A stretch of 64,000 nucleotides of DNA from Rhabdophis nuchalis (lineage: Eukaryota; Chordata; Lepidosauria; Squamata; Natricidae): the NCBI GenBank assembly GCA_039707465.1, contig CM077643.1:62746605-62810604 (forward strand), in the 5' to 3' direction. Below the pieces are notes generated by a model. It did no database searches, had not been told where the DNA came from, and saw nothing but the letters and a program-made list of their open reading frames with translations. Made by a program: the position numbers and the translations under genes. Below, piece after piece: positions 1 to 62,285 of the stretch (the first letter of the stretch is position 1; the number at the start of each line of letters is the position of its first letter).

Positions 1-262
1 TTATTAATACAGTATAACTTTTATCTGGATGTTTGTACACGACTGCCAGCATAGAATTTAGAATTTATGATGTATGCATTTATTTTCACCTTGTAGTATT
101 ATTGACAAATGTATTACCAATGTCTTATTAACTAGCCCTGGAGGGGCCAACGATCTCGACGTGAAAGTTCTCAAAATATTTTTGTACTTCACCTTACCCT
201 ACCCTACCTTTAAAAATTTGTAAAAACCAATAAAACTTTTGCAATAAACAAAAAACGAAACA
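1..262 (+). mobile_element. 3' end of an ORF1-only-type L1 element (copy a)
   Basis: The stretch ends with a segment much like the 3' UTR of the full-length copy at 50263-52253: a GAGG..CC.ACGA..T.GACGTGA motif, CTCAAAAT, an ACCTTACCCTACCCTACC run, then AATAAAACTTTTGCAAT and an A-rich tail. Only the 3' UTR lies in the window, so whether this copy had ORF1 alone cannot be seen here. It abuts the duplicated block that begins near 267. Confidence 0.65.
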
Positions 263-3029: not shown

Positions 3030-5521
3030 AAACACAGGGTCAATTAAAAAGGACTCAAATGTCTATACATCAATGCACAGAGTATGAGGAATAAATAGGG
3101 TGAATTAGAAATTCAAGTAAATGAGGGCAGATATGATATTGTTGCCATTACAGAAACTTGGTGGGATGAAACCCACAAATGGAACATACAGCTAGAAGGA
3201 TATAAATTATTTAAAAGAAATAGACCAAATAAAAGAGGAGATGGAGTTGCACTATATATAATAAATAACTACATCTCTACAGAAATAGAGCACAACAATG
3301 ATGAGAACTATCTTGAATGCATTTGGGCCAATATTAAAGGTTGTGGGGGGGAATGACATTGCTATAGGTCTATAATACAAGCAACCCAACCAAGCAGAGG
3401 AAGTAGATGAACTTTTTGCTAGTCAGCTAACTAAGGTATGTAGGAAGCACACTACAACAGTAATGGGGGATTTTAACTATCCTGACATCAACTGGAAAGC
3501 AACTCTGCACCAAGTGGAAGATCCAACAGGTTCCTAACAAACCTAGCAGACAACTTTGTTTCCCAAAAAGTAGAGAAGGGAACAGGGGAATTAGCCATAT
3601 TGGACTTAATTCTCACTAACAGAGAGGAAATGATAGAAAGCATTGAAGCCACCGGAACCCTGGGGACAAGTGACCATGGAATATTGGAATTCAACATTAT
3701 GCAGATATAAATAGTAGAACAAAGCCAAACTAGAGTCTTGGACTTTAAGAGAGCTAATTTCAATAAACTTACAGAGAGCTTGAGAAAAATTCCATGGATG
3801 AGAATCCACAAAGGGAAAACAACTCAAGAAATTTTGAAAAATGAGATTATAAAAGCCCAGTCTAGCACAATACCGATGAAGAAGAAAAATAACAGCTCCC
3901 AAAAGAAACCAACATGGCTGTATAAAGAACTCTCTGACAAATTGAAAGACAAAAAAGATAGGTATAAAAAGTGGAAAGAGGGGGACATAACTAAGGCAGA
4001 ATATCAGCAAATAGCCAGAGCCTGTAAAGATGAAGTGAGGAAAGCTAAGGCTCACAATGAGGAAAGGCTTGCCGTAAAAGTAAAAATTAACAACAACAAA
4101 AAAAGCTTCTTCCAACATGTTAAAAACAAGAAAAAAGTTAAGGAAACAATTGGTCCATTGCTTGGAGAAAGTAGCAAGAAGGTGACAAGCAACAGGGAGA
4201 AAGCAGAACTATTTAACTCATTTTTTGCATCTGTCTTCACACAAAGGGATAAAACAGTCCAACCTATCAAAAATAGCACCACAAAAATCAGATTAGGAAC
4301 ACAAGTTGAAATTGGGAAGAAAATGGTAAGTGAGCACCTGTCTACCCTAGATGAGTTCAAATCACCAGGACCAGATCTCAGAACTACTGAGCTATATCTT
4401 TCAAAGATCCTGGAGCACTGGGAAACTTCCAGAGGACTGGAAAAGGGCTGATGTGGTTCCCATCTTCAAAAAAGGGAAAAAAATAGATCCAGGAAACTAC
4501 AGACCTATCAGCCTGACTTCAATACCAGGAAAGACTCTGGAAAAGATAATCAAGAAATGTATTAGTGAACACCTAGAAGTAAACAAAGTAATAGCCAAAA
4601 GCCAACATGGGTTTGTCAAAAACAGATCATGCCAGTCTAATCTTGGTGTTAAAAAGTTTTATTGGTTTTTACAAATTTTTGGATAGGAAAAGTATAAATG
4701 AGACATTTTGAGGACATCTGTGTCGGAGGTGTCGGCTCCCTCCCAGGCTTCATACAGAAAAAAAAACAATACAATATTTTTTTCATTTTCCTACAAAGTG
4801 GAAAGAGATACCTACATATATCATTTCACAACTTCATGCAATCAATCATTTATTTCTATAAACATCCAGATAAGGGTTACGCTGTATAATAGAAAGTCAT
4901 TTGTGAGATCTGAGTCTTTTAGCTATTGTATCCTCTTCTCTTGCCAGTCTAACCTTATTGCATTCTTTGACAAAGTGACTAAATTAGTGGACCAGAGGAA
5001 TGCTGTTGATATAATTTACTTGGACTTCAGTAAGGCATTTGATAAGGTAGACCATAACCTACTACTAGATAAAGTAGAAGAATGTGGATTAGACAGCATC
5101 ACAACCAGTTGGATTTGTAACTGGCTGACCAACAACACTCAATGTGTAGTCCTCAATGGAACTGCATCTACATGGAGGGAAGTATGCAGTGGAGTACCCC
5201 AAGACTCTGTTTCACTCTTCAACATCTTCATCAATGATTTGGATGAGGGAATAAATAGGAACTCATCAAATTTGCAGATGACACCAAGCTGGCAGGAATA
5301 GCCAACACTCCAAAAGATAGGCTTAAGATACAGAAGGATCTTGACAAACTTGAACATTGGGCACTATTTAACAAAATTAAATTCAATGGTGAAAAGAGTA
5401 AGGTTCTACATTTAGGCAAGAAAAACAAAATGCACATGTACAGTATAGATGGTAACTTGCTCAATAGTAGTAACTGTGAGAGGGATCTTGGAGTCCTAGT
5501 GGACAACCATTTAATATGAGC
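3030..5521 (+). pseudogene. CR1 LINE ORF2 (endonuclease plus RT), broken copy
   Basis: Sequence order matches CR1 ORF2. First comes an APE-like endonuclease start (YINAQSMRNK, then ITETWWDE near 3150), then a basic linker (3738-4330). Reverse transcriptase blocks follow: [16 protein letters not shown] and NYRPISLTS at 4435-4520, QHGFVKNRSC at 4600-4630, then [13 protein letters not shown] at 5020-5060 and SGVPQ at 5190. Frameshifts and stops are frequent (for example TAG near 3100, loss of frame near 4370). A 297-bp L1-type insertion with a TSD splits it at 4645-4941. The copy ends abruptly at about 5521 inside the RT C-terminal region (NHLI.ASQ), so its 3' third was lost by deletion, since target-primed insertion does not truncate 3' ends. 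It is not expected to be active. Confidence 0.85.
4645..4941 (-). mobile_element. 5'-truncated L1-type element (copy b) inside CR1
   Basis: The insert is the 3' end of the same family as 18487-20514 on the minus strand: its plus-strand start reads AAAAAGTTTTATTGGTTTTTAC and its far end encodes the basic C-terminal tail of ORF1 in reverse. Flanking direct repeats TGCCAGTCTAATCTT (4630-4644) and TGCCAGTCTAACCTT (4942-4956) differ by one base and duplicate CR1 sequence, which is a clear TSD. Confidence 0.9.
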
Positions 5522-8874: not shown

Positions 8875-10284
8875 TTTTAAACAATTTTTATTGGTTTTTA
8901 CAAATTTTGTAAAGAGGAAAAGGGTATATAGGATGTAGAAGAAATGTTTTAGGGCTTCCATGTCGGAAGTGGTGGCCGCCTCCAAGATTTCATACAAAAG
9001 TTTTTTCAGTATAAGGTGGAAAGAGATACATACATATCATATCATAAATTTCATGCATTCAATCATTTGTTCCTGTTGACATCCGTTTAGGAATTACAAT
9101 ATATAAAAGAAAAAAAATCATTTTTGTGATCTGAGTCTTTTGGCTTTTGTGTCTTCTTCCTTCCTGCCAGTGGGCGGAGCCATGGCCCCTCCCGCTCCCC
9201 CATTTTTGTCCTCCAGGATTGAGGAATGTTTTTTAAGAAAGGCTTCCGCCTCTTCAATTGTTTTAATTCTTACTCTCCCCCCCTCCCAGAACACCAACAT
9301 TCCTTCAGGCATTGACCACTTGAACCACACCCCTTTTTTATACAATTTTTTGGATAAGAAGGAATATTTCCTTCTTATCTCTCGAATCTTTTTCGGGATC
9401 TGCTTCAAAATAGAGATCTCTTTCTGCTGGTATATCAAAGGGCCATCTCGCTGTGCTCTCAGAATCTCATCCCTTGTTGACCTTCTTACAAATTTAATAT
9501 GTATCTCTCTGGGTACATTTATTCTGGCATATGCTGAATTAATTCTGTGAATCAGGTCTATGTCCCCCCAGATGTATTCTTTACTCTTTTTAGTATAATC
9601 TGCTAAAATTGTGCACATTAAATCTTTTAAATTTTCTGAATCTGATTCTGGAACATTTTGAAACCTTAAAAAGTAAGACATTCTTTCAAAATCCATTCTA
9701 AACATATGACCAGCAAGGTCCACAATTTCTTTTTGAGAATCCCTTATCTCGCCCCTCATCTCAACTGCCCCACCTCCAACTCATCAATTTTTGTTTATTT
9801 TCCATTAGTGCTCTCTGTGTCTCCAAAAGTTCCAATCTTGAACTTATCATGTCTTTCCGGATTTCTTTTATTTCTTTCATTATATTTTGAAGCGTTTCCT
9901 CTATTGATGGTTGTTGAGTGTCCTCTCCAGCTGCTTCTTTCTGTATCATTGAAGTAATTTTTGCTTGCTGTAGAGTTGGACTAGCTTTCACAGAAGCAGG
10001 GGCAGAAAGAGATTTCCCAGATGGAGGCTTTCTTGCTGCCATAGTAAAAGTTTTAAGTTCTTGTAGGTAAGATGGTGTCTGGTGGGTGAGCAGTCCGTGA
10101 GATCGGAGAAAAGGGAAAGTCTGTATCCGAATTTAAAATGTAATTTGCATAAAGTCCAGAGAGAATTTTTTTTACAATCCAATCCAGTAAAAAAAGAAGG
10201 CACACAAAGGGAGAAATCCCGAGAGTCACTTGAGTTGGCTTGTATGTAAATTTTACAGTCCTGTAAAATTGAAGGAATGCTCAC
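8875..10284 (-). mobile_element. L1-type ORF1-only element (copy c), 3' part
   Basis: This minus-strand element is cut by an L2/gypsy nest; its 5' remainder is 14835-15048. The outer 18-bp TSD GAATAAGCGTGCACTTTT occurs at 8857-8874 and again at 15049-15066, proving that 8875-15048 is one insertion with later guests. The second duplication copy shows the uninterrupted site near 63913-63930. ORF1 is followed directly by a short 3' UTR ending in AATAAAA.TTGTTTAAA, with no ORF2. Confidence 0.9.
9118..10042 (-). pseudogene. L1 ORF1 protein of copy c, one frameshift
   Basis: Read on the minus strand from the ATG at 10042, the protein begins MAARKPP, has a coiled-coil-like segment ([18 protein letters not shown]), then shifts frame near 9760. 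It continues with the RRM-like block ([19 protein letters not shown]), [19 protein letters not shown], a [16 protein letters not shown] block and the C-terminal domain ([18 protein letters not shown]). It ends in a Gly/Ala/Pro-rich basic tail. The domain order is that of L1 ORF1p, an RNA-binding chaperone. The frameshift makes this copy a pseudogene. One residue appears deleted in ARIN(E)VPREI compared with sister copies. Confidence 0.88.
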
Positions 10285-14834: not shown

Positions 14835-15048
14835 TGGAAAAGTTTCTTGCTGAGAACAAAGAAGCACCATTTTTCCGCCTCTTTGGCAGTCGTGAAGAAT
14901 TAATGAAAGTCCATTTCTACTGTAACAAGACTCAGATACAAAGTATTGACAGCAATTCCATATATGGTAAAACTTTCATTTTCAATTAGTTAAAAATCGG
15001 ATGTTGCTTTCTTTCTCTCCCTGAGCCCGGGGAGCATTTTAAAACGCC
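14835..15048 (-). mobile_element. L1-type ORF1-only element (copy c), 5' UTR part
   Basis: It matches the 5' UTR of copy d (19885-20095): TTTCTTGCTGAGAACAAAG, GAGATACAAAGTAT, GAGCATTTxAAAACGC. It completes the element started at 8875; the far TSD is 15049-15066. Relative to copy d it is truncated by about 420 bp at the 5' end. Confidence 0.85.
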
Positions 15049-17052: not shown

Positions 17053-20000
17053 GTAAACTTCACAGAGGAAAGGGAAGATTCCTTCTCTAAAGAAAATATC
17101 CAAAGATGCTCTTTGAGACAAGAGTAAAACTTTTTGAGTTTGGTGAAAGAGGGGTGGAATTCCACAAATTCAGGGGGGGAAACCCCGTAATTTCTTATCA
17201 ATAAAAAGTACATGCACTGAAAAACTGGTCCAGGACAGAAATTTAAGTATATTCTTTACTTCTCGTATGACTACTTCACTGTTGGGGGTTGTATGAAACA
17301 GAAACTATGTATAGCGTAGCCCCCTAATCTGACTTTTAGATACTTTTTAAATTTGGGGATTTTAATCTGGTTTTAGCACAGGATCCATTGAATTAGTTTT
17401 TTAAATTTTATATGATGTTTTGTATGTATTTTTAATTTTCCTGTGCGCCGCCCTGGGTCCGTTTGGAGAAGGGCGGGGTATAAATGGAATAAATAATATA
17501 AATATATATATTTTATAACCAAATTACATGGTTTTTCACTTTTATGGAACTATTTTAGGAATGGCAGTTCCAGTTTTTAAAAGCACCTAAGAGGAAGCCC
17601 TCTTACCCAAAGTGGCATAACTGATATCTCAGACTAGTGGGCATTATTCCTGTTGTTCATAGAATTGGATTACAAATGCAACTAAAATGCATCCTTGTAG
17701 AGTTTAAAAACAAGGAAAAGAGAAATGGACTGACTCTTCTAAATAATTCCGCTTCGTATAAGATCACAGGCTGAACATCTCTCTATCTGAACAGAGTGTA
17801 AGTCCATAAGGCTGTGCAGAATTTAGAATGGGTATTTTCTCTTCAACCGAGATTGAAGTCAAATGTGTCATGAAAGAAGGTACATGGCCATTTTCTTCTG
17901 ACAGCAATACAGCAGCTGCATTGCTTCATGGCTAAGCAGCATTTGGTGCAGATGTGCAAAAACAGGTCCCAGCTTTGCAAGTGTTGGTCAGCATAAGAAA
18001 ATGAATCCAGAGCATCTTACTAGTTCATCTCTTTGCCTCAGTAAAGAAGATCACAGATCTTCCTGAGGGCAAATCTAATTCACCTCATGCAGGTTTGATA
18101 CTCTTATCCAAAAATTACTGTGGGTCTTTTTTGTTCTCTTTAGGAAACTGGAAGAATCCTTTTGATCCAGAGTTCACAAGAGAAGAGGACTTCTTTGTGG
18201 ATCACAACACAACTGTCAAAGTTCAAATGATGCACAGGACCGGATGGTTTTACTCCTATTTTGATAGGCAGCTGTCTTGCACAGTACTGCTGTTAGACTA
18301 CAATGGTACAGCCACCACATTTTTTGTTTTGCCTGATCCTAAAAAAGAGAAGTCATTGGATGAGATGCTGTCAATAGAAACTGTGAACAGATGGGCAAAA
18401 AATGCACACAGGTAACACTTCTTTTTACGCTTCTATATTTCTCCATATATATCTCCATATTTCTCCATATTTCTCCGTATATTCTTGGTTAAAAAAAGTT
18501 TTATTGGTTTTTACAAATTTTTTCAATCAGGAAAAGGGTATAAGGTATTAGTGAGACATTTTGAGGACATCTATGTCGGAGGCGTCGGCCCCCTCCGAGG
18601 CTTCATACAGAAAAAAAAAGGTGATACAATAAATTTTCCATTTCCCTACAAAGTGGAAAGAGATACATACATATATCATTTCATAACTTCATGCAATCAA
18701 TCATTTGTTTCTATAAACATCCAGATAAGGGTTACACTATATTGAAAAAAGTCATTTGTGAGATCTGAGTCTTTTAGCAATTGTATCCTCTTCTCCTTGA
18801 CCACCAGTGGGCGGGGCCGTGGCCCCTCCCATTCCCCCATTTTCATCCTCCAGGATTGAGGAATGTTTTTTAAGAAAGGCTTCCACCTCTGCAATTGTTT
18901 TAATTCTTACTCTCCCTCCCTCCCAGAACACTAACATTCCTTCGGGCATCGACCACTTGAACCACACCCTTTTTTGTATAATCTTTTTGATAAGAAGGAA
19001 TATTTCCTTCTTATTTCTCTAATCTTTTTCGGGATCTGTTTCAAAATGGCAATCTCAGTCTGTTGATATATCAAGGGACCATCTCTCTGTGCTCTCAGGA
19101 TCCCATCCCTCGTCGACCTTCTTACAAATTTAATATGTATCTCTCTGGGTACTTCATTTATTCTGGCATATGCTGAATTAATTCTATAAATCAAATCAAT
19201 GTCCCCCCAAATATCTTCTTTGCTCTTTTTAGTATAATCTGCTAACATCGTACACATTAAATCTTTTAAATCCCCAGAGTCAGCTTCAGGAACATTTTGA
19301 AACCTTAAAAAGTAAGACATCCTTTCTAAATCCATCCTAGACACATGACCAGCTAAATCCACTAATTCTTTTTGAGAATTACTTATCTCTCCCCTCATCT
19401 CAGCCTCCAGTCCATCAATTCTTTGTTTATTTTCCATTAGTGCTTTCTGTGTCTCCAAAAGTTCCAGTTTTGAACTAACATTGTCTTTCCTGATTTCTTT
19501 TATTTCTTTCATGATGTTTTGTAGAGTTTCCTCTATTGTTGATAACTGTGTAGCTTCCCCCTCCGTTTCTTTGGAAAACATTGAAGTAATCTTAGGTTGG
19601 TCTGGGTGCTTTTTTGAAGCCATAATGAAAGTGTTAAATTCTTGTCACTAATATGGTGTCTGTTGGAGAGGTAGTCCGTGAGGCGAGGAGAGAGTAAGAG
19701 TCAGAGTCCAAATTTAAAATGCACTTTGCTTAAAATCCAGAGAGAGAACAATTTTTTAAACAGCAATCAAATGGGAAAAAGAAGAAGGCACATCTGGGAG
19801 AAATCCTAAGAGTCCATTGCATTAATCCAATAGTAAAAGGTTCAGTCCCATAAAAATGAAGGAGTGTCAGCACTTTTCAAAGAGAAATATTTCTTGCTGA
19901 GAACAAAGGAACGCCATCTTCCCCGCCCCTCTGGCAGCCGCGGAGAACTAGTGAAAGTCCATATCAGTTGTTGCAAGACAGAGATACAAAGTATCATTAA

Positions 20001-23000
20001 CAGTCTTAAAGTGAAAGACTTTCATTTGCTGTTTAAAAATCAGATGTTAAGTTCTCCTCCTCCCCAAGCCTGGGGAGCATTTCAAAACGCTGCTTTTTTT
20101 TTCCTTCCAAGGAGGGGTTTTACAAACTCCCCCCTCCTTCTTCTTTAAAAATTAAAGTTGAAGGCATTAATTATTAAATCACTCACAGTCCACTCTGCTG
20201 CAATGACGGAGCCTCGGTGTTGCCTTCAGCTCCGGCTTTCAGCCCAACTTTAATTGCAGCTGTCCCAGCTCTCCATCGGCGAAGGGGATGAAAGGGAAAC
20301 TCCCCCCCCCGTGACTCGTTTTCCGGCGCCTGGGACAGGCGGGAGCCACCCCCCCGACTGCCGTCAGGGTGGGGGAATCCCCACGGGCCGTCCATGCAGT
20401 GGGGGCTCTTTAGCAAGAGCCCCCATGCCCCCGAAGGCGCCGCCGGAGCAACCAAGCAGCGGACGTGTCAAAGACCCATCCGTCGCCTCCGGAAGACCGG
20501 AAATGGAATCATTAGTATATTCTTAAAGGGTAACTAAAAACAATTTAGTGTCCTTGCATTCTGTGCTATGCTCTTCCATAAAGTTCCTCTCTTGATATTG
20601 TCCCCTGTGTATGAGAATAGAAGATTTGTTCACTAATTCTTAACCACCTTACTAATTATTCTTCCTTCCTGCTTGTTTTATGTTACTTCATCCTTTTGCA
20701 AAATATCTCAAGACATGCTATTCAGAGACTTATATGTTCCTGTGGAAAATTCTGCATCATTGTTCTAAGTCAGGGGTCAGCAATCTTAAACACTCAGAGA
20801 AACACAAAGGTCCTAAACGGAAGCCCCCTATTCAATTCTGGAGCCAACCAATTCTAGTTTCCCCCACCATAGAGTTTCATCCTAATGTGGCATCCTTTTT
20901 CCTACCTGTCCTAACCGAGAGCCCTATCGATTGTGGAGCCGACTGGTGACAGGGAGCTGCAGCACAGAGATGAAAGAGCCACATGTGGCTCCAGAGCCAC
21001 AGTTTGCTGACCCTTTTTCTAACTTGTGAAAGAGTATCCTAGAGGACTGAATGGTGGTAGAAGGGGGAGGGCTTTAGTGAGGAGATGCCAAATGCACCTC
21101 AGAAGCCTCATACCACCACGAACAAAGCAGACGGGAATGGCTTCCTAACCCCTCTACACAAAAAATAAAAAAATATTTTGCTCAAGTCCCATTTGGCCTT
21201 ACAATGTTGTATTTGATCCCTTCATAATACTTCAATACTCCGCTTATTTTTTGCAATATCTTCAGTTTTATTCCTGTATCTTAATTAATCTCAGGTATGC
21301 CAGCATCTGGGTCTGCCATAGAGGTAAAATTCTGCAAGATGGTGAGTGTGGCATCATGATAGAAAAGTGGTGGGGCTTTGACACTTGATGTGGTTACCAT
21401 CTTGTAGATTTTGATCTTCCATGCAGACACTGCAAATTAAATCCCTTTCCCAGATCAAATAGATCACCTGAAACTGGATTAAAATCAGTCTGAATCAAAT
21501 CAATAGTTCAAATTAGAGGCAGTACTCATTATGGATCATAGTTTGCACCAACAACTTTATTGTAAAGCAAAACATCAGACTTATAACATCAGTACATCAA
21601 TTCCAGCTGCAGCTATTAATCTAATTAGTTTATGACTATGACTTTTGACTTCCTGCCAGCTTCCCCACTGACTTTATTTTTTAAAAGCTGGCTGTGAAGG
21701 TTGCAAATGACAATCACACTACCATAGGACAATCACTGTAATTCACCTCCCCCTCTTTGCTTGTTCAAGCAATCTTTCTATACTGTGATGGAGAGAGAGG
21801 GATCACACAAGAAATCTCTTTAGGCCAGCTTTCTTTTTTTTCTTTTTTTAAGAATTTTACTTATTTTTTAATAAAAGAAAAATACAAAAAAGAAAAATCA
21901 TCATTCTACATTGTATCCTTTGGAAAATATGTCAACTGGTTACACATAACTCTTGTGCATTTCTAGAAATTATTACTCATGAATAATCTAGTTTTATAGA
22001 TTTTAAATCAAAAGATTCATTATATATCTTAATATTATTACACCCGAATTCTCCTCTAATATTCCATATTTGGTCTATCTTCTTCTTCAGACAAGTCTTA
22101 CTTAAACATAAACACATAATGGCATCCATTGTCTATTCCAAACATACATGAATATATACATACACCTATGTTGGCGGTCTCTGGTGATGAGCCAGAGGAG
22201 AAACACCTATCATACACCTATCTTGATGGTCTCTGGTGATGAGCTGAAAGGCAGGAAAGGAAACAGTATGTCTCCTCCCTTAATTGGGGCCTAATAACAG
22301 GTTGTTTTGAAACAATTACCTATACACACAGATATATATAGTCACAGTCACAGACAGAAGCCTGCCTGATGATGACAAGTGAGATCTTGTCGAAACGTTG
22401 CAATAACATCTCCATGTTATATACACGGGAAATATATATATTTCATAGATTTTCATGGGTGTAGGTATGCTGGCATTGCTTGCTTCGGGTATTTTCCCGT
22501 GTATAAGGCATGGAAATGTTATTGCAACGTTTCGACTAGATCTCACTTGTCATTGTCAGGCTTTGGTCTGTGACTGTGACTGCAAAGGCATGGCCCTTTT
22601 TAAAATCTTGGTGGGAGGTGTGGAGTGATGACTATTGTTGTGAGTGTGTTGATTAGCTTTGCAGCTGCATCATGACTGGTATATTGATGCTGATTGGTCT
22701 CATTTGTATGTTTCTCCTTATTTTGAATTTCAACGGCTTGGGTGGAGGGTGAGGCTCGTCTGCTGGTCAGTGCTGGTTTCCAGATGTCTGGTAGGCGGGA
22801 GGTGTCATCACGTTTGTTCATACTGTTAGATTGCTTCTCTATTTCAAGTATGAACAAACGTGATGACACCTCCCGCCTACCAGACATCTGGAAACCAGCA
22901 CTGACCAGCAGACGAGCCCCACCCTCCACATTTCGCATATTATTGCCCAGTGTAGCTCTCAGATAATACCGCATCCCAGTTTCTATCTTTACATGTTGTT

Positions 23001-31516: not shown

Positions 31517-31764
31517 TACAATACAATACAATAGCAGAGTTGGAAAGGACCTTTGAGGTCTTCTAGTCCAACCCCCCCGCCTATGCAGGAACCTTATACC
31601 GTTTGAGACAAATGGCTATCCAACATCCTCTTAAAGACTTCCAGTTTTAGGGCATTCACAACTTCTGGAGGCAAGCTGTTCCACTGATTAATTGTTCTGT
31701 CAGGAAATTTCTCCTCAGTTCTAAGTTGCTCCTCTCCTTGATTAATTTCCACCCATTACTTCTT
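31517..31764 (-). repeat. CR1 3' end (continues at 36715)
   Basis: On the minus strand it gives the CR1 C-terminus and 3' UTR (GGTTGGACTAGAAGACCTC type) ending in (ATTGT)n. It is the distal part of the CR1 whose remainder is 36715-38605. The 13 bases 31752-31764 are the TSD of the intervening L1. Confidence 0.9.
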
Positions 31765-32132
31765 CTTTTTTTATTGAAAAAGTTTTATACAAACAAATTT
31801 TCCCCTTTTTACCCCCCCCCCCCCGACATATAATATAAATCACATACAAATACTGTACCCCCTCCCCTCCCTCCATCTTAAAATAAATTTCTCATTCAAA
31901 TATTGTGCCCCTCACCTCCCAACAATCATAATATAAATTTCTCTTAAAGTAACCATATCCCATTAATCCCATCTTCTCAATTAGTTATACATATATATTT
32001 CCCCACCCTCCACCCTAACTCTCCCCCACCTCCCAATCAAACCCACCCCCCTGACTTCCGCTATACACCACTCTAGTAATTCCAAACATCCCATATATTA
32101 TTTACTCTGTTCATCTGTCAATCTAAACATTC

Positions 32133-35100
32133 TTATCTAAAGGCTACATAGTACTTCCTAGTCTGGTATTTATTCTGTATATAATCAATCCATTCTACCC
32201 ATTCCTGTGTATAATTCTCCTGCTTCTGACCTTTTAAGAAAGCTGAAATTTTTGCCATTTCCACAAACCCCGCCACTTTCTGAATCCATTGATCAATTGT
32301 CGGTAAAAAATCTTTTTTCCAGTGTTGAGCAATCAGCAACCTAGCTGCTGTAACCATATACAAAACCAATTTTGTTTCCCCTTTAGTAAAATCCTTAATT
32401 ATACCCAATAAAAACATTTGCGGAATAAATTGTATTCTTGTCTTAAATACATTTTGCATAACCCACCATATTTTTATCCAAAAAGCTTTAACCTTATTGC
32501 AAGTCCACCATACATGAAAAAAAAGTAGCATCTAAACACCCGCATCTCCAGCATTTTGGTTGAACATTTGGGTACATACATGATAATTTCTTAGGATCTA
32601 AATACCATCTGTAAAACATTTTATAAAAATTCTCCCTTAAATTCTGTGACTGTGTAAATTTAACATTCTGAACCCATATTTTTTCCCACGTATCCAACAT
32701 AACCAATTCATCAAAATTCTGAGCCCATTTAATCATGCAATCCTTGACCAATTCACTTTCTGAGTCTCTTTCTAACAATACATTATATATTCTTTTGACA
32801 TGTTTTGGGCCAGTCTCCTTTATCTGCTTGATCAGTTCCACTTCTTTATCCATAAAACCAACCCTGCGATCTTCTTTCCATCTCTTCTGTAACTGTATAT
32901 AATGTAACCAATTTAGAATAATTCCTTCTTCCAACAGTTGTTCCAAAGTTTTCAACTGCCATTCGTCCCCATCAGCAATAAGCACGTCTTTATATAAACA
33001 CCCCCCGAGTGACTTAGTATTTGTAATCCACATGGTGTCTGCAAGATCCAACCAAAGCGGTATTTTATAATCCCAATTAGGCAGGTGCTTCTTCCATATT
33101 CTCATCAAGGCACTTCGGAGAACATGATTGTTAAACACTTTATCCACCCTATCTTCATAAAAAAGATATGCATGCCATCCCAGAACAAGGTCATGACCTT
33201 CTATATTCAACAGTTCAGTTTTTGTTTTCCCAAACCAATCTGCTACATGCGTCAATACCGCAGCTTCATAATACAATCGAAGGTTTGGGAGTCTGAGGCC
33301 ACCTCTTTCACAAGTATCTTGCATAATCTTCATCTTTACTCTCGTTTTTTTCTCCTTCCAAACAAATTTATTTAATGTTGCTTGCCATTCTAACAAGATT
33401 TATCTGATTTAAGCACCGTTATCATCTGGAATAAAAAAAATGAATCTAGGTAGAATGTTCATTTTAATTGCTGAAATCCTTCCAAGCAAAGATAGTTGTA
33501 ACTTTTTCCATACTTGAAGGTCTTTCTGTATCTTTTGCCACAACACTTCATAATTATTTGGAAAAAGTTTTGTATTTGATTCTGCAATTTGTATTCCTAA
33601 ATATTTGACCTTGGAAACTATTTCGAAACCTGCCAAACTTGCAAGTCTCTTTCTTTGAGTCTCTGTCATGTTTTTAACCATCATTTTCATTTTATTTTGA
33701 TTTAGTCTAAACCCAGACACCATGCCAAATTCCGCTATGATATTTTTCATCTGAATTATTGAATTCAAAGGATGTGAAAGGGTAACAACCAGATCATCGG
33801 CAAATGCTCTAGTTCTGTATTCCTTTTGCCTAATAGCTATGCCATTTAAGGAGTTTGAGTCCTGAATTGTATTCAACAAGACTTCCAAGGTTAAAATAAA
33901 TAACAATGGAGATAATGGGCAACCTTGTCTTGTATCTTTTTGTATCTCGAAGGTTGTAGACAAATTTCCATTAATAATAAGTTGTGCATTTTGTTGCTGA
34001 TAAATTGCTCCAATCGCCTGTCGAAATCGTGGTCCCATATCCATCTTTTCCAAAGTCTTGGTTAGAAAATTCCAATTCACTCGATTGAAGGCCTTCTCCG
34101 CATCCAAGAAAACCAGCACTGCAGAGATCTGCTTATTCTTATCAAGATAGTCAATTAAGTCTATGAGTTGCCTTACATTCTCCTTCATGTGTCTACCTTC
34201 AATAAATCCTGCTTGGTCATAATGGATAACCTCTTGGATAACTGGCATCAATCTGTTGGCTAGTACTTTAGCAAATATTTTATAATCTGTGTTCAGAAGA
34301 GATATCGGTCTGTAATCTTCTGGTTTCTTAGGGCCATCTTTGTCTTTGGGTGTCAATGATATAAAAGCCGCTTTCCATGAGAAAGGTATTTTACCTCCTT
34401 GCTGTATATTGCAAAATAGTTCTGTAAGATATTCAATCATTTCCAATTGTAAAGTTTTATAGTACATTGCAGTCAAACCATCAGTCCCTGGAGCCTTGGC
34501 TAGTTTAAGTTGGTTTATAGCTAAAATAATCTCATCAGCAGTTATCTGTCGTTCCAAATTTGCCTTTTGAAGCGCGGATATTTTGGTAACCCTTTTTCTT
34601 TCCAAAAAATCATCTACTGACTTGTTCTGTATATTGTCCTGTACATATAACTTAGCATAATAGTCCACAAATGATTTTTTAATCAGATCTTGTTGATATA
34701 CCGCTTTCCCTCCATACTCAATTCTATCAATAATTCTATTATTCGTATTCTTTCTCAAGGTGTAAGCCAACCACCTACCAGGTTTATTAGCATTAGCAAA
34801 GGTGTTATGTTTGGCAAATTGTAAGTTGATTGCTGTTTGTTCTGATATAAGCATTTGAAATTGATCTTTCAACAGCTTTATCGCCATCTGAAGTGCCTCA
34901 TCTTTTGGAGTTGCTATAAGTAACTGCTCCTTCTTTTTTATTTCATCTTCCAATTCCATTCTCTTTTTCTGTCTGCTTTGTTTATGTTTAAAATTCATAT
35001 GTATCAGGACCCCGCGCATATAAGCTTTACTTGCATCCCAAACTGTTTCAATGGGAGTACCCTTATTCATATTAAAACTAAAAAATTCCTTCATGTGTTT

Positions 35101-35870
35101 TTTAAGTTCATCAACATTTTTTTCATATCTAAATAAATTTTCATTTACTCTCCATGACCTTCTTGACCTCTTCCCTAGCTCAATCTCTAACCACACCGGG
35201 CTATGATCAGTTAGTGTCCTGGAAAATATCTTGGTTTTCTTAGCTTTAGGAAGTAAATCCGGTGTTAGCAAAAAAAAATCAATCCTTGAGAAGGATTTAT
35301 GTCTATCTGAATAAAAAGAAAAGTCCATCTCGTTTGGATGTTGTATCCTCCAAACATCTTTTAGTTCCAAGTCGTCTTGTAATTAAAAAAAAAACCTGTG
35401 GTAATTTGGTAGTAAATTTAGTCATTGTTCTCTTATCTATCCTTGGGGAAATCACTCCATTCCAATCTCCCATGATTAAAATACTCTTAAAATTCCAATC
35501 CAAAATTTTTAAGTGAAGCATCTTATAAAAGCTTTCTTCTTGTTGATTAGGTGCATATATTCCTACCACCAAAATAGGACCAAAATCTGTATCAAGTTCA
35601 ATTGCTATATATCTACCACTATCATCCGCCTAATTTTAGCTGAAAATCTTTTATTTATATATATCGCCACTCCATTTTTCTTTACCAAATTAGAGGCTGC
35701 ATAAAATGTTCCCAATCTTGGATTCGCTAAATACTTCTGATCTTGCAGCCTAATATGTGTTTCTTGAAGGCAAACAACATAATTATTAAATTGCTTCAAA
35801 TAATAAAATATTTTTTCCTTTTTTGTGGAGAATTCAATCCATTCACATTCCAAGATAATAATTTAAACAT
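32133..35870 (-). pseudogene. L1 ORF2 (endonuclease-RT) of L1-old
   Basis: It starts MFKLLSWNVNGLN near 35870, then breaks into frames at 35605-35853 and 35303-35572 (endonuclease: LQETHIR, IMGDWNGVI). A long open frame at 33409-35370 covers RIDFFLL, DHSPVW, GTDGLTAMYYK, YRPISLLNTDYKI, LDAEKAFNRV, GCPLSPLLF and AFADDLVV, so the catalytic Asp pair is present. C-terminal parts are at 32494-33396 and 32133-32531, with a CWRCGC zinc-like motif. At least four frame breaks are seen. In L1, ORF2p nicks DNA and reverse-transcribes the RNA; this copy is dead. Confidence 0.92.
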
Positions 35871-36684
35871 CTTTTGGCCTAACCTGAAGCGCTGAGAGCA
35901 TTTGCTGAAGATCTCTCTCCACAAGACTAATCTTCGGCCCTGCTCCTCCCATGGCTTCAATTTGCTTCTTGCCTTTGTCCCTCTTGGCACATTGTACTTG
36001 GGGCTTCCCCTGCTTCTGAGATTCTTGCATTTGTCTAGTCATAGATCTAGTAACACGTTGTTCCACTGGCTTAAGTAATGGCATTTCAATGAGGGTCTTG
36101 GACGGTTCCTCCAAGGAAGAACTTAAAAGAAATCCAGAAGGATCCACTTGGGATCCACCTACAGCACCCTGAGTTTCCTTCTCTTTTTGCGTCTGCTTTA
36201 TTTGTTCTTCTGTCTCTTTCTCAAACAGCCTCTGCTCTAAAACATCCAAATCTGCTGGTGTTGGTGTAGATGTGCGTGGGGGCGTTGCACTTGCCTTCAG
36301 TATTTCATAATAAAAATATCTTGCCTTGTCTATAGTATTCAAACGATACCTCACCCCTTCATATCTGAATATAACACCCATTGGAGCATCCCACCTATAC
36401 TGTATCTCTATTTTCTTCAGCTCCACTACCAAAAATCCAAAATCCCTTCTAAACTTTAACATCGCTGGTGGTAGCTCCTTGAAAACACCAATCATATTCC
36501 CGTCTATTTGAAGAGAAGAGTAAAAAGATTTCTGCAAAATATCATTTCTAAAGTTTCTCTCAGTAGAATATATCACATCTCTTGGTAATTGCCTTTGTAA
36601 TGCTATATGTGAATTTGCTCTGTAAATTTTATCAATCTTAGCAGAAATTTCATCAGGATCATCCACTTTTAATAACGTGGCCAA
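35863..36684 (-). pseudogene. L1 ORF1 C-terminal part of L1-old
   Basis: The frame gives ISAKIDKIYRANSHIALQRQ, LPRDVIYSTERNFRND and the C-terminal domain (YRWDAPMGVIFRYEGVRYRL), followed by a Lys/Gln-rich tail. It aligns in order with the ORF1 of the ORF1-only elements ([32 protein letters not shown]). The coiled coil and most of the RRM are missing because of the 5' truncation at 36701. Confidence 0.85.
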
Positions 36685-36714
36685 AGCATCGGCACTTTTT
36701 TCCCATTACTTCTT

Positions 36715-49199: not shown

Positions 49200-50160
49200 C
49201 AGTGGTTGGCAAACCGCGGCTCGCAAGCCGCATGCGGCTCTTTGGCCCCTTGCATGTGGCTCTTCAGTCTCTCTGATTCCCTCCCTTCCTCCCTGTCTCT
49301 CTCTGTCTCTCTCTCGCTCTGTGCCTCTCTCTGTCTGTCTGTCACTGTCTGTCCACAGAATACCGCTTGAAGCAGCGGTGAGTTTCTGCGCTGCCAGCGG
49401 GGCCATCCGTGAGGTCCGCCTCGCGTTCCGCATCTTCCCCATGGTGTCTGGAGTGATCAGCGGCTGTGCAGAAACTCGCCGCTTTTCCACACCGTGGAAA
49501 AGATAGGCACGTGCACGTCCCGCGGAATTACAGCACAACTTCCCACCGGTACGAAGTCTCCGAGACTGTAATTGAGCGGAGCATGCGCGCACCTATCTTT
49601 TCCACAGAAAAGATAGGCGCGTGCATGTCCTGCGGAATTACAGTCTCGGAGACTTCATAGCGGTGGGAAGTTGCGCTGTAATTCCGCGGGACGTGCACGC
49701 ACCTATCTTTTCCTGGGTGTGGAAAAGTGGCGAGCTGCTTCACTGCTGCTGCTTCTGCTACCCCCGAGCCTTGCGATGCTCAGCTCCCGCCGCCCAGGTC
49801 ACCTGGCAGGTCGCCCGGCAGGGGCGTCGGGCAGGGAAGCCGGGCACATCTCCACCAGCTCCCTCTGACAGCCACCATGGCACACGTTCTGGGGCTGCGT
49901 GGCTGGGAGGGAGGTGGACACGCGGCCCCAGAACGTGCGCCGTGGTGCCTGTCGGAGGGAGCCGATGGAGACGCGACTGGCTTCCCTGCCCGACACCCCT
50001 GCAGGGCGATGTGCTGGGCGACAGCCTCAGTGGTGCTTAAGATGACGTTAGCCTTGGGTGCTTGCCCCGCCTGCTCGCTCGCCCGCTGCGGGAGGAGGCG
50101 TCCGTAACCTCCGGCATGCTGGCCCTTCCGCTGCTTCCCGGGGTGGGGGGGGAGGAGAGG
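49200..50160. mobile_element. GC-rich hAT-like fold-back element, truncated
   Basis: The left end CAGTGGTTGGCAAACCGCGG after ACTTAATG looks like a hAT terminus. Inside are two big inverted repeats: about 49496-49572 against 49635-49713, with a smaller palindrome in the loop (GCGCACCTATCTTTTC pairing with GAAAAGATAGGCGCG), and about 49812-49893 against 49929-50010. The GC content is far above the surroundings. The right terminus is not visible; the sequence passes into the GA tract. Apparent ORFs here are mirror translations of the arms. Confidence 0.6.
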
Positions 50161-50262
50161 GGAGAGAGGGAGTGACTGACAAGACACAGAGAGAGACAGA
50201 GGGGGAGGGAGGGAAAGACACAGAGAGAGAGAGACAGAGACAGAGAGAAAGAGAGGGAGGGA
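50161..50262 (+). repeat. GA-rich tract, left of the insertion
   Basis: (GAGA)n/(GACA)n mix; the last 17 bases AGAAAGAGAGGGAGGGA (50246-50262) are the TSD of copy e. Confidence 0.9.
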
Positions 50263-52253
50263 CTTCCGGTTCCGGCTCCGGCGGCGACGGGCGAACTTAG
50301 GGTTCGCTCGCCGCTTTGTTTCTTTTCCTGCCCCCCCACGGGGGCGAGAAGCCCCTTGTTTGGGGTTTCTCCCGTAAAGCCGGCTCGACAGGGAAGCCCC
50401 CCCCCACGGCAGTGGGGAAAGCGACCCCGATCCTCGGCTTAGGCGGAAGAGGACATGCTGCGGGGGGCTTTTCCTTCGCCAAAGGTTGGCGGCACCATTT
50501 AACTTTATGGAGAGAGACGATCGGAAGAGTCGGGAGGCTTTTCGGGAGCTCAGCTGCGAGCGGAGAGTGAGCTATTAAAACTTTTTTTTTGTACTGTCAG
50601 CCGGGCTGAAAGGGACAGGAGGGAGGTGTTTGTTCCCAAAAAACCCCCCTTGGACTAAAAGCGGCACTTGGAAATGCCTCGTTGCGAGGAATCGGAAACT
50701 TTTAATCCGGATGGTCTCTAACAAGGGAAAGTATTTTGCGGCTTGTTTGCAATTATGTCTCTAGGTCTGGCTGAAACAGTTTCTTTTTTGCTTTTTAACC
50801 GCTTTCTCCCTCGGGCTCTGAGTCTGGGCGGAAAATGGCTTCTCTTTGTCCCCGACTGACTACGACCTATGGAAAATTACCAGTGTCTCTTTGTGATTTG
50901 GACTTCCTCTAATTATTGATGAAGAATTTTCTTCTTTTGGATTTGTGTTTTCCTTTCTGGATTACCTTCGTTATTATACCTATGGAGTTGGAAAAGTGTT
51001 TCTCTACTGGTTTCTGAATTCTGCAGCTCTACAACTTTGAGAACTTTGGACTCCTGATCTGCCTCACCAGCCCCACCCTAAAAACGCCATTTTACTGGCA
51101 CGGATTTTAATAGCTAAACATGGCACAAGAAGCAACGCTGGCAAGCCTTGAACAAAGAATGACTGCCCTTGAATCTGTTATACAAAATTTGGTATTAGAA
51201 ATTAAGGCCCAGAGGGCAGAAAATGTCAATTTTAAAAAGGAATTATTGGACACTCGAAAACAAGTGCTTGAGAATACACAGAAGAATGAAGAATTGAAAG
51301 GGGGGCTGGAGGGGGCTAAGGGAGAGATTAAAAATGTTTCTAATGAGGTTGTGGAAATAAATGGGCATGTGACTAGGATAGATATGGAAAGGATGACATA
51401 TTTTTTGAGATTTCAGAATGTTTCTGAGATGGATGGTGAATGTCTCCCTGATCTTATGAGTACAATTATTGCAGACTATTTATATAAACCTAAAGATGAG
51501 ATCAGAGGGGACATTGACCTAGTCTACAGAATAAATTCTGCATATGCCAGGATGAATGAAGTACCCAGAGAGATACATGTAAAATTTCTTAGAAGGTCAA
51601 CCAGAGAGGAAATCTTGAAGGCGCAAAGAGGGAGTCCTATGATTTACCAACAAAAGGAGGTTACCATCTTGAAGCAGATTCCAAGAAAGATTAGAGAAGC
51701 TAGAAGGAAATTTTCCTTCTTGTCTAAAACATTGTTTGATCATGGGATCTGGTTCAAGTGGGTGATACCCGAAGGGATGCTGGTGTTCTGGGAAGGAGGT
51801 AGAGTGAAGATTAAAACAGTTGCTGAGGCGGAAGCCTTTCTTAAAAAACATTCCTCTGTCCTGGGAGAAGATCCAGGGGGGGGCAGGGGGAGCCATGGCC
51901 CCGCCCGCTGGGGGCCCGGGGGAGAAGGTGGAAGATACAATTGCCAAGAGACTTAGATCTAAAAAATAACTTTGCCCTGGGTTTTTTTTTGAGTAATATT
52001 GTATGATATTTGTAATCTGGATTTTTGTAATTGACTGACAGTATAAAACTGAAAAATTTAGGAATATGTACTTGCTCCCAGCTTGTAGTGTTATGTGAAA
52101 TGTTTCTTTTCTTTCTTTTTAATAATGTAACTTGAGGTACCGGAGGAGTCGACGACTTTGACGTGACCACTCTCAAAATTTCTATGTATCCCTTACCCTA
52201 CCCCATAAAAAATGTAAACTCAATAAAACTTTTTCAATTAAAAAAAAAAAAAA
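50263..52253 (+). mobile_element. Full-length ORF1-only L1-type element (copy e)
   Basis: A 17-bp TSD AGAAAGAGAGGGAGGGA flanks 1991 bp (low-complexity site, but the match is exact and abuts the poly-A). The 5' UTR is 857 bp, GC-rich at its start (CTTCCGGTTCCGGCTCCGG), like that of copy d. ORF1 (51120-51956) is followed by a 3' UTR of under 300 bp and AATAAAACTTTTTCAATT plus poly-A. No ORF2 is present. Confidence 0.94.
51120..51956 (+). CDS. L1-type ORF1 protein of copy e, 278 aa, open
   Basis: RNA-binding protein of an L1-derived element, here encoded alone. From MAQEATLASLEQRM a coiled coil runs to about residue 95 (LESVIQNLVLEIKAQRAENV, LLDTRKQVLENTQKNEEL). The RRM-like domain ([56 protein letters not shown]) and the C-terminal domain ([36 protein letters not shown]) follow. 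The final 25 or so residues differ from the sister copies because one extra G lies in the G-run near 51880; the sisters end in AKRxRSxK. The frame is otherwise intact, and the N-terminal part differs from copies c and d. Whether the protein is made is unknown. Confidence 0.9.
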   Translation: MAQEATLASLEQRMTALESVIQNLVLEIKAQRAENVNFKKELLDTRKQVLENTQKNEELKGGLEGAKGEIKNVSNEVVEINGHVTRIDMERMTYFLRFQNVSEMDGECLPDLMSTIIADYLYKPKDEIRGDIDLVYRINSAYARMNEVPREIHVKFLRRSTREEILKAQRGSPMIYQQKEVTILKQIPRKIREARRKFSFLSKTLFDHGIWFKWVIPEGMLVFWEGGRVKIKTVAEAEAFLKKHSSVLGEDPGGGRGSHGPARWGPGGEGGRYNCQET

Positions 52254-52537
52254 AGAAAGAGAGGGAGGGAGAGAGACGGAGAGAGACACAGATAGAGAAT
52301 GACACAGGGAGGGATTGAATCGGAGACAGACAGGGGGAAAGAGGGAGAAACAGACATACAGAGACAGAGAGAGAGAGGGAGGGAGGGAGAGAATCAGAGA
52401 GAATGACACACACAGACAGGGAGAGACAGAGAGAGGGAGGGAGAGACAGATAAGTGACTGAGAGACAGACAGACAGACACACACACAGAGTGACAGATGG
52501 GTGGAGGAAGGAGAGAGAGACAGATACAGAGAGAGAC

Positions 52538-53984: not shown

Positions 53985-54764
53985 AAGACGTTACCTAATC
54001 GGGTAATGAAACATCTGCAGGCAAACAACCAAGCTCTTGGACCCTACAGTTCAACCCTAAGTTATAAATATTATCTTCTTTTGATAAGAAATCTAGAATG
54101 AAAAACAAGGATGGTTGAAAACACGGCATATATTTATTATAGAGAAGATGTTGGGAGTCCAAATCTATGTCTTCGTTTATCTGAATAGTTGTAATGTAGA
54201 AGCAAGGCAGAATCGTTCAGAGTTGCATCATAAGACATAAAAAGAAATAATAACTTTAAGCTATAAGAAATAGATTTCTGTTGGGCATAACAAATAATTC
54301 CTAAAGGTAATAATTATTCAATAATGGAACAGCTTGCCCTGGGAGATGATGGACTCTCCTTCACTAGACCTATTTCAACAGAACCGAGATGGATATCAGT
54401 GAGTGCTCAGCACTGTAATTGTGAATTCTAGTACTGGGCAAGAGATTGGATTAGATGGTTTCTTGAAATGTCTCCTCCTTCAGAGTCTTTCCTATCCTGC
54501 TCCCTTTGAGATGCATTTGGACTATCACTAATAGAATTTCTGATGATATAACCACATTATTTAGGATTAAGCCCTGCCATCTGTAAATCTTTCAGTGTTC
54601 TCTATCTTACTTGGAATTCTGTAACTCAGTTGCTAATTATTACTCAACTAAACAAATATCTATTGCTGGTTGAACTGGTAACGGTTCACAGTTATTTGTT
54701 CTGCTTTCAGTAAATAATCCAGCTGGTTTAAGTTCTTACGGTCATATGTCTTACCAAATAATAT

Positions 54765-55650
54765 ATATATTTTTTTATATTGAAAAAGTTTTATTGGTTT
54801 TACATTTTTCTATAGGGTAGGGTAAGGGATACAAAGAAATTTTGAGAGCATTCACGTCAGAGTCGTCGGCCCTTCCGAGACCTCAAAATACACAATAAAA
54901 AGATAACAAAAAAAAAGCATTTTTCATAACACTACAAGGTAAAAGCAAGTACATATACCTAAATTCTCAATTCCATGCTGTCAGACATTTACAAAAAATC
55001 CAGATACAGATATTATACAAAATTGTTCAGAAAAATCAAGGCAAAGTTATTTTTTCGATCTAAGTCTCTTGGCTATTGTATCTTCTTTTTCTCCTCCCTG
55101 GCCCCGAGCGGGCGGGGCCGTGGCCCCCTCCGTCCCCCCTGGATCTTCCCCAGGGCAGAGGAATATTTTTTAAGAAAGGCTTCCGCCTCAGCAACTGTTT
55201 TAATCCTCACTCTTCCTCCTTCCCAGAACACCAGCATCCCTTCGGGTGTCACCCACTTGAACCAAATCCCATGATCAAATAAAATTTTAGACAATAAGGA
55301 AAATTTCCTCCTTGCTTCTTGAATCTTTCTAGGAATCTGCTTCAAGATAGTGACCGTTTTTTGTTGGTAAATTAAAGGGTTCTCTCTCTGCGCCCTCAGG
55401 ATTTCCTCTCTGGTTGACCTTCTAACAAATTTCACATGTATCTCTCTAGGCACTTCATTTATCCTGGCATATGCTGAGTTAATTCTATAGGCTAGGTCAA
55501 TGTTCCCCCTGATCTCATCTTTAGGTTTTTGTAAATAGTCTGCTAAAATTGTGCTCATAAGATCAGGGAGGCATTCACCAGATTCCTCAAGAACGTTCTG
55601 AAATCTCAAAAAATATGTCATTCTTTCCATATCAATCCTAGACACATGCC
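54765..55650 (-). mobile_element. 5'-truncated ORF1-only L1-type element (copy f)
   Basis: A TSD ACCAAATAATAT lies at 54753-54764 and 55651-55662; the empty site is in block A first copy near 1066. On the minus strand it contains ORF1 from the RRM onward, then a 3' UTR of about 300 bp and AATAAAACTTTTTCAATAT. No ORF2. Confidence 0.95.
55073..55648 (-). pseudogene. L1-type ORF1 C-terminal part of copy f
   Basis: The frame is open from the truncation point ([19 protein letters not shown]) through [36 protein letters not shown] and [14 protein letters not shown] to a basic end. The coiled coil is missing because of the 5' truncation. It is of the e/g subfamily in its core. The first residues of the open frame upstream of HVSRID are host sequence. 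Confidence 0.88.
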
Positions 55651-56071: not shown

Positions 56072-56225
56072 CAGAGGTGGTATTCAGCAGATTCTGATCA
56101 GTTCTGGAGAACCGGTAGCGGAAATTTTGAGTAGTTCGGAAAACTGGTAAATACTACCTCTGACTGGCTCCGCCCCCATCTATTCGCTGCCTCCTGAGTC
56201 CTAGCTGATCAGGAAGGAATTTTAC
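56072..56225 (-). mobile_element. hAT-like MITE, reversed, one end
   Basis: CAGAGGTGGTATTCAGCAGATTC then GAACCGGTAGCGGAAATTTTGAG: the reverse of the 30207-30481 family. The other terminus is missing. Confidence 0.7.
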
Positions 56226-57734: not shown

Positions 57735-57735
<1 letters not shown>

Positions 57736-60595: not shown

Positions 60596-62274
60596 GAGCG
60601 GAGAGTGAGCGTTTAAAACTTTTTTTTCCTGTACTGTCAGCCGGGCTGAAAGGGACTGGAGGGGGGTGTTTGTTTCCAAAAAACCCCCCTTGGACTAAAA
60701 GCGGCACTCGGAAATGCCTCGTTGAGAGGAATCGGAAACTTTTAATCTGGATGGTCTTTAACAAGGGATAGTACTTTGCGGCTTGTTGCAATTATGTCTC
60801 TAGGTCTGGCTGAAACAGTTTCTTTTTTGCTTTTTAACCGCTTTCTCCCTCGGGCTCTGAGTTTGGGCGGAAAATGGCTTCTCTTTGTCCCCGACTGACT
60901 ATGACCTATGGAAAATTACCAGTGTCTCTTTGTGATTTGGACTTCCTCTAATTATTGATGAAGAATTTTCTTTTTTTGGATTTGTGTTTTCCTTTCTGGA
61001 TTGCCTTCGTTATTATACCTATGGAGTTGGAAAAGTGTTTCTCTACTGGTTTCTGAATTTTGCAGCTATACAACTTTAAGAACTTTGGACTCCTGATCTG
61101 CCTACCAGCCCCACCCTAAAAACGCCATTTTATTGGCACGGATTTTAACAGCTAAACATGGCACAAGAAGAAACGCTGGCACGCCTTGAACAAAGAATGA
61201 CTGCCCTTGAATCTGTTATACAAAATTTGGTATTAGAAATTAAGGCCCAGAGGGCAGAAAATGTCAACTTTAAAAAGGAATTATTGGACACTCGAAAACA
61301 AGTGCTTGACAATACACAGAAGAATGAAGAATTGAAAGGGGGGCTGGAGGGGGCTAAGGGAGAGATTAAAAATGTTTCTAATGAGGTTGTGGAAATAAAT
61401 GGGCATGTGACTAGAATAGATATGGAAAGGATGACATATTTTTTGAGATTTCAGAATGTTTCTGAGATGGATGGTGAATGTCTCCCTGATCTTATGAGTA
61501 CAATTATTGCAGACTATTTACATAAACCTAAAGATGAGATCAGAGGGGACATTGACCTAGTCTACAGAATAAATTCTGCATATGCCAGGATGAATGAAGT
61601 ACCCAGAGAGATACATTTGTTAGAAGGTCAACCAGAGAGGAGATCTTGAAGGCGCAAAGAGGGAGTCCTATGATTTACCAACAAAAGGAGGTTACCATCT
61701 TGAAGCAGATTCCAAGAAAGATTAGAGAAGCTAGAAGGAAATTTTCCTTCTTGTCTAAAACATTGTTTGATCATGGGATCTGGTTCAAGTGGGTGATACC
61801 CGAAGGGATGCTGGTGTTCTGGGAAGGAGGTAGAGTGAAGATTAAAACAGCTGCTGAGGCGGAAGCCTTTCTTAAAAAACATTCCTCTGTCCTGGGAGAA
61901 GATCCAGGGGGGGCAGGGGGAGCCATGGCCCCGTCCGCTGGGGGCCCGGGGGAGAAGGGGGAAGATACAATTGCCAAGAGACATAGATCTAAAAAATAAC
62001 TTTGCCCTTGTTTTTTTTTGAGTAATATTGTATGATATTTGTAATCTGGATTTTTGTAATTGACTGACAGTATATAATTGAAAAATTTAGGAATATGTAC
62101 TTGCTCCCAGCTTGTAGTGTTATGTGAAATGTTTTTTTTCTTTCTTTTTAATAATGTAACTTGAGGTACCGGAGGAGCCGACGACTTTGACGTGACTACT
62201 CTCAAAATTTCTATGTAACCCTTACCCTACCCCACAAAAAATGTAAACTCAATAAAACTTTTTCAATATAAAAA
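60596..62274 (+). mobile_element. ORF1-only L1-type element (copy g), 5'-truncated
   Basis: A perfect 11-bp TSD AGAAAGCTAGT at 60585-60595 and 62275-62285. It is nearly identical to 50575-52245 but lacks the first 310 bp or so. ORF1 is followed directly by the 3' UTR and AATAAAACTTTTTCAATATA. No ORF2. Confidence 0.95.
61158..61999 (+). pseudogene. L1-type ORF1 protein of copy g, one frameshift
   Basis: MAQEETLARLEQRM through the coiled coil and RRM core matches copy e. A small deletion near 61617 (after PREIH) shifts the frame; the C-terminal half continues at 61646-61999 with LFDHGIWFKWVIPEG and ends in the family tail AKRHRSKK. Confidence 0.9.
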
Positions 62275-62285
62275 AGAAAGCTAGT

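Follow-up and report, generated by a model that had tools for sequence, protein, structure and literature searches.

A young, high-copy lineage of HAL1-like, ORF1-only LINE-1 elements in the squamate Rhabdophis nuchalis

Mammalian HAL1 elements are described as encoding only an L1-type ORF1p, as having a poly-A end and target-site repeats, and as relying on the reverse transcriptase and endonuclease of full-length LINEs (PMC5753468, PMC5322556, PMC4859970). They are reported to have arisen from L1 several times (PMC5753468), such that a separate origin in squamates would be no surprise; and, given a reported gain of HAL1 activity by the rat genome (PMC8535693), youth alone does not make a HAL1 novel. 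A second class of described systems is that of the SINE/LINE tail pairs, in which the 3′ end of a non-autonomous element resembles that of an autonomous LINE with which it shares a genome. For the L1 clade, the sharing of tails has been reported in plants and in a green alga (PMC3747384). No squamate HAL1 appeared in the open-access titles and abstract openings among the matches listed in our literature search, and a term search of a squamate repeat survey (PMC6050309) returned no instance of HAL1, non-autonomous, ORF1 or ORF2.

The elements that we describe here from R. nuchalis are, with a probability of about 0.9, a non-autonomous, ORF1-only LINE-1 lineage (i.e., HAL1-like) that consists of a 5′ UTR of about 857 nt, a 282-codon ORF1p and a 3′ UTR of about 270 nt followed by poly-A, and whose RNA would be copied by the ORF2p of an autonomous L1. 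The basis of this reading is the anatomy of the copies, the direct repeats at their ends, their recent expansion, the purifying selection on ORF1, and the absence of ORF2 at the sites examined. As in mammalian HAL1, the family codes for ORF1p without ORF2, ends in a poly-A tail, and is bounded by target-site repeats. It is unlike mammalian HAL1 in its squamate host and in having an ORF1 from a squamate L1 clade, in its high copy number and the integrity of its ORF1 (19 of the 20 e-type copies read), and in a 3′ tail that ends like that of a different L1 family. As far as the literature search shows, the new features are the squamate host, the several ORF1-only subfamilies with a selected ORF1, and the L1b-like tail. 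At the sites examined, the family lacks the ORF2, with endonuclease and reverse transcriptase, that an autonomous L1 would have; and whereas a SINE is short, non-coding and transcribed from a pol III promoter, these elements are 2 kb long and protein-coding.

Within the window (i.e., the whole 64-kb stretch of DNA that was analysed), the features are as follows:

50263..51119, plus strand: 5′ UTR of copy e (857 nt), with the full-length start CTTCCGGTTCCGG
51120..51969, plus strand: ORF1 of copy e, with a G-run frameshift near the C-terminus
51970..52239, plus strand: 3′ UTR of copy e, abutting the ORF1 stop, without ORF2
52222..52238, plus strand: 3′ terminal tail of copy e, AATAAAACTTTTTCAAT, the last 14 to 17 nt of which are common to L1b copies
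52240..52253, plus strand: poly-A of copy e, then the target-site repeat GAAAGAGAGGGAGGGA
60596..62279, plus strand: copy g, 5′-truncated, 96.8% identity to e, with the 11-bp target-site repeat AGAAAGCTAGT
54765..55650, minus strand: copy f, 5′-truncated within ORF1, with an empty site at 1068-1078
18489..20512, minus strand: copy d, full length, of the c/d subfamily
8876..10280, minus strand: 3′ part of copy c, comprising ORF1 and 3′ UTR
14837..15047, minus strand: 5′ part of copy c, cut off by a nested insertion; 18-bp target-site repeat
4645..4938, minus strand: short c/d-type copy, comprising the ORF1 end and 3′ UTR; heavily 5′-truncated, with an empty site at 37667-37684
1..252, plus strand: 3′ UTR of copy h, whose ORF1 and part of the 5′ UTR precede the window (L009 6356-8158)
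31763..36690, minus strand: copy of L1b, an autonomous L1 family; ORF1 and ORF2 broken here, 3′ tail similar to the tails of e, f and h; the family is a possible partner

A preliminary description of the window had listed five copies (c to g), each with ORF1 running directly into the 3′ UTR, and self-comparison and reading bear this out: the copies lie near the places given, and in each of them a homologous 3′ UTR, about 270 nt long, follows ORF1 with no ORF2 in between. That inventory holds but was incomplete, in that two further 3′ ends, those of copy h (1-252) and of the short copy at 4645-4938, were picked up by a profile search of the window; in the sequence upstream of the window, it is ORF1, not ORF2, that precedes the 3′ UTR of copy h. 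Copy c, which had been given as a single element at 8875-15048, is present but is 5′-truncated and divided in two by a nested insertion (about 10281-14836), in which CR1/L2-like and LTR-retrotransposon-like frames were recognised by eye in the list of open reading frames. Copies d and e are both full length, as had been stated, but the homology claimed for their 5′ ends is weak in direct comparison: BLASTN alignments between e and d are confined to ORF1 and its vicinity, the best alignment between the e/f/g and c/d groups lies within ORF1, and the two types are bridged by copy h, with a p-distance of 0.26 to the e-type copy L010 and of 0.34 to d. In self-comparison, identity is 96.8% between e and g, about 86% between f and either of these, and 77% between c and d.

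The position at which copy e starts, beside its direct repeat, recurs in the majority of the 20 e-type copies that were read; L017 and L025 are among the few that begin further in. The open frame of copy e (51120-51956) has 278 codons, and that of other copies has 282 and ends KRLRSKK-stop; the ORF1 of c, d, f and g is likewise broken or truncated. Also present in the window are a 216-aa frame (16440-17090, plus strand) that by eye resembles the start of an alpha-1-antitrypsin-like serpin and, upstream of copy e, an inverted repeat (49458-49751) with 145-nt arms that are 86% complementary and separated by a 4-nt spacer.

The lack of ORF2 in these copies had been attributed to a single ORF1-only lineage in preference to independent deletions, and the junction between ORF1 and the 3′ UTR, which is identical among lineages that differ at about 38% of aligned bases, favours the same choice. 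When the 3′ tails were compared with the ORF2 proteins of the two further L1s in the window, no ORF2 remains scored better than E 0.37.

Each of the copies c to g was said to have its own target-site duplication, and a direct repeat does bound every one of them: as read from the sequence, it measures 18 bp in c, 10 bp in d, 16-17 bp in e (where it sits in a GA-rich tract), 10-11 bp in f, and 11 bp in g. Near the ends of the 21 full-length copies read (20 e-type copies plus d), a script looked for exact direct repeats of 9 bp or more: it obtained one in 20 copies, L017 being the exception; in L020 the repeat given is not the one that adjoins the element. For copy f, a segmental duplicate supplies a natural empty site (1068-1078), and that of the 4645-4938 copy, at 37667-37684, comes from a related repeat. 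The insertion sites of c and d are TT/AA-rich, which is what the L1 endonuclease, with its preference for TT/AA-rich sites, would give.

These signatures bear on the question of whether segmental duplication, and not retrotransposition, multiplied the copies. A genuine segmental duplication is indeed present in the window (298-8874 versus 53984-63928); its pieces are mostly 94.5-99% identical, with some stretches at 83-86%, and it is interrupted by other insertions, f among them. However, the 40 scored copies described below are spread over nine contigs, and the poly-A and individual direct repeats of the copies, together with the empty sites of f and of the 4645 fragment, rule out this mode of spread, to which we assign virtually no probability.

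To gauge the extent of the family, the 1.92-Gb host genome was searched with copy e. The 40 matches scored (of 6133 first-look candidates) are 98-100% identical to e over 1928-1996 bp, as anticipated for full-length copies of about 2 kb, and wherever copies were examined, they share the same 3′ UTR end without ORF2, also as anticipated. A 22-mer close to the ORF1 end has exactly 6781 occurrences in the genome (0 for its reversed control), and the terminal pattern GTAAA-(1 to 4 nt)-CAATAAAACTTTTTCAAT has 10,656 (control, 0). The 282-codon ORF1 is intact in all of the 20 e-type copies except the window's own copy e, with its frameshift; the mean pairwise distance among these copies is 0.95%, and their mean distance from the majority sequence is 0.52%, although, because they were picked by DNA score, they lean towards young and intact ones. 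The HAL1-like, ORF1-only L1 lineage is high-copy, young and diversified and, as is characteristic of a HAL1, has multiplied as a lineage of its own. Five copies of the c/d subfamily were encountered (c, d, the 4645 fragment, and the hosts of nested insertions at L012 and L020), none with ORF2, and with so few the absence of ORF2 is less firmly supported for this subfamily. Family copies nested in fellow family copies occur at L012, L020, L023 and L070, and three of the 19 fetched e-type copies sit inside another family copy.

If the copies were by-products of an autonomous 6-kb L1, generated by internal deletion, splicing or early polyadenylation, ORF1 would have been selected in the parent and not in the copies themselves. 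It has been suggested that 3′-truncated L1 RNAs with ORF1 might be retrotransposed (PMC4859970), and autonomous L1s with a related ORF1 (31-42% identity) are present in this genome. In a less biased sample, we asked what follows ORF1 at other sites, using the first 100 places, in order, of the 22-mer, an ORF1-end pattern of the e/h type, and of the terminal pattern; because both sets were taken in order, the interval C1:1.74-12.92 Mb should be covered by both, and the analysis concerns the 48 ORF1 ends within it (the other 52 lie beyond). ORF2 follows the ORF1 end at none of these 48 sites. An exact tail lies 222-282 nt downstream on the same strand at 40 sites and at 419 nt at one more, and these 41, which were judged by distance, leave no room for ORF2. 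The seven remaining sites, which have no exact tail of their own, were all read: at six of them the same 3′ UTR ends in a mutated tail, and at the last a further family copy intervenes, so that 47 of the 48 reach the element's own 3′ end (six as read, 41 by distance).

Approached from the other end, a query with the 5′ UTR alone gave 4838 candidates, and 36 of the best 40, which were scored, fit an ORF1-only element: 26 were already among the 40 matches to e, and in 10 of the other 14 the 3′ UTR lies at the distance expected without ORF2, the last four being broken. Neither a sense ORF2 behind the 5′ UTR nor a parent L1 with a matching 5′ UTR occurs among these 40 best matches. The four broken matches are L048 (a repeat 89% identical to window positions 26231-26591 and L2/CR1-like by eye; 361 nt read), L049 (a simple repeat; 361 nt read), L050/L062 (L1b inserted antisense in ORF1), and L056/L063 (which breaks into unrelated DNA). 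At L064 a family member is followed by L1b ORF2 sequence, and at L062 L1b lies in the ORF1 of a family member; the HAL1-like family and L1b have apparently each landed in the other.

The absence of a sense ORF2 from all 48 ORF1-end sites of one interval and from all 40 of the 5′-UTR matches, and the constancy of the junction and the 3′ UTR across subfamilies whose ORF1 dS exceeds 1, make it very improbable that the copies are by-products of an autonomous element. A 6-kb family internally deleted at differing breakpoints, the outcome that the preliminary description had set down as contrary to its proposal, was not seen at the sites examined. The ORF1 of the lineage groups with those of autonomous L1s, but no autonomous parent that has the same UTRs was found, so that an origin by loss of ORF2 is one that we infer.

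The pattern of substitution in ORF1 points to purifying selection. In 17 pairs between copies of different lineages (dS 0.15-1.5), dN/dS is 0.15-0.29, so that the check proposed in the preliminary description comes out in favour of selection. Changes from the majority sequence in the 20 e-type copies comprise 30 synonymous, 23 nonsynonymous and no stop, against a neutral expectation of 79% nonsynonymous (p = 2e-8, in a test without CpG effects). As none of the subfamilies seen has an ORF2, the most economical view is that ORF1 was selected in elements that had no ORF2.

The ORF1 of e had no Pfam match at E 0.01, and that of c had a weak match to Transposase_22, under the curated cut-off. A fold predicted from a single sequence was poor (pLDDT 46), and the model based on a 17-row alignment reached a pLDDT of 83.5, with a long coiled coil, an RRM-like domain and a C-terminal domain. 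All 12 solved structures that matched this model at E < 0.001 are of human LINE-1 ORF1p, and the predicted fold matches that of the human protein.

Among database proteins, the closest to the family ORF1 are P0001 and P0002, which come from short contigs and are 80-83% identical; the next have 23-44% identity and include four from snakes and two from lizards. In the ORF1 tree, the family and P0001 group together (support 100/100) as sister to P0003-P0005 (100/99). P0003, P0004 (Ahaetulla prasina) and P0005 are like the family ORF1 in being short (270-291 aa) and in having a similar basic C-terminal end, but they differ from it in sequence, with 36-42% identity. Two of the database proteins, P0004 (Ahaetulla prasina LOC131191674) and P0006 (Crotalus tigris), are annotated as 'uncharacterized proteins' and resemble L1-type ORF1s.

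Autonomous squamate L1s of the same genome also have a homologous ORF1, with 31-42% identity for L1c/d/e and about 27-30%, over longer stretches, for L1b. Unlike the family, L1b, L044/L045 (= L1c), L046 and L047 carry ORF2, which is open in L045 and broken in the others read, and the ORF1 frames of the autonomous L1s are longer (347-411 codons from stop to stop, where read whole). With both of its frames open, L045 is an L1 with a possibly working ORF2 in the same genome. Within the window, L1a (40492-45531, minus strand) has an open ORF1 (352 aa) and an open ORF2 (1259 aa), and its 3′ end is unlike that of the HAL1-like family. L045, L046 and L047 join the ORF1 tree further out, and the L1b ORF1 falls outside the clade of the family ORF1 and L1c/d/e (support 98/99), in a tree in which long branches were flagged for L1a, P0011 and L1b.

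Because ORF1 groups with L1c/d/e and the tail, ending in ACTTTTTCAAT, resembles that of L1b, the two parts of the element point to different L1 families. L1b is abundant (4712 candidates, 36 scored), and its copies end in AAAACTTTTTCAAT before poly-A in 10 of the 10 cases with a readable 3′ end (nine of ten fetched stretches, that of L034 being without the end, plus the window copy), as do e and f. Copies e, f and h resemble L1b over 14-17 nt (with one mismatch in h). A count of the 16-mer ATAAAACTTTTTCAAT over 298 kb, allowing at most one mismatch, came to 26, of which 25 are in the HAL1-like family and one is in L1b; copy h enters twice, through the overlap of L009 with the window, and the sample is made up mostly of loci chosen for holding a family copy. 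When the tails were compared with L1b, the score was reached by 2 of 1000 shuffles for e, 0 for f, 8 for h and 69 for d; scores against the L1a, L1c and L1e ends were reached by 91 or more of 1000.

A possible explanation for this resemblance, which would refine the main reading, is that the element captured the 3′ tail of L1b and that L1b ORF2p recognises its RNA in the way that stringent LINEs recognise SINEs. The uniform ends of L1b, the position of its ORF1 outside the clade to which the family belongs, the confinement of the 16-mer to the family and L1b within the 298 kb, and the poor scores of the L1a, L1c and L1e ends would all be accounted for in this manner. However, the common stretch is short and includes part of a poly-A signal, the c/d-type tails are without the CAAT end (and the score of d against L1b is reached by shuffles more often than those of e, f and h), the tail could have been retained by common descent, and mammalian L1 is described as needing just poly-A (PMC3747384). 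Given the short match and the possibility of common descent, capture of the tail is attractive but unproven, and we consider it somewhat doubtful. The family is reminiscent of SINE/LINE pairs in that the 3′ ends of the non-autonomous copies e, f and h, though not clearly that of d, resemble the end of an autonomous LINE from their own genome; it differs in being 2 kb long and protein-coding and in its short tail match. A hairpin in the 3′ UTR (seven pairs, three with compensatory change) is, at -3.1 kcal/mol, too weak to be claimed as a structure, and Rfam had no match in 50200-52300.

For a HAL1-like, ORF1-only lineage, the path to a new copy would begin with translation of the element's RNA into ORF1p, which probably coats, in cis, the RNA that encodes it. 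The ORF2p of an autonomous L1 would then copy this RNA in trans, by target-primed reverse transcription at a nicked target. In view of the common 3′ tail end, L1b is a candidate for the source of the reverse transcriptase. It can further be conceived that the family is a chimeric and long-lived L1 parasite, with the ORF1 of one clade, selected in the absence of ORF2 through several subfamilies, and a 3′ tail that enables copying by an L1b-type ORF2p; we consider this combination unlikely. If it were true, it would imply recognition of the tail by a vertebrate L1 and a stable division of ORF1p and ORF2p between elements, possibly also in snakes (P0003-P0005).

For genome annotation, the relevance of these findings is that some uncharacterised reptile proteins of about 280 aa (e.g., LOC131191674) may be the ORF1s of such parasites. 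More broadly, an abundant and young squamate case, with an ORF1 that is intact and selected, offers a natural test of the role of ORF1p, i.e., of what the ORF1p of an L1 does for its own encoding RNA when ORF2p comes from elsewhere.
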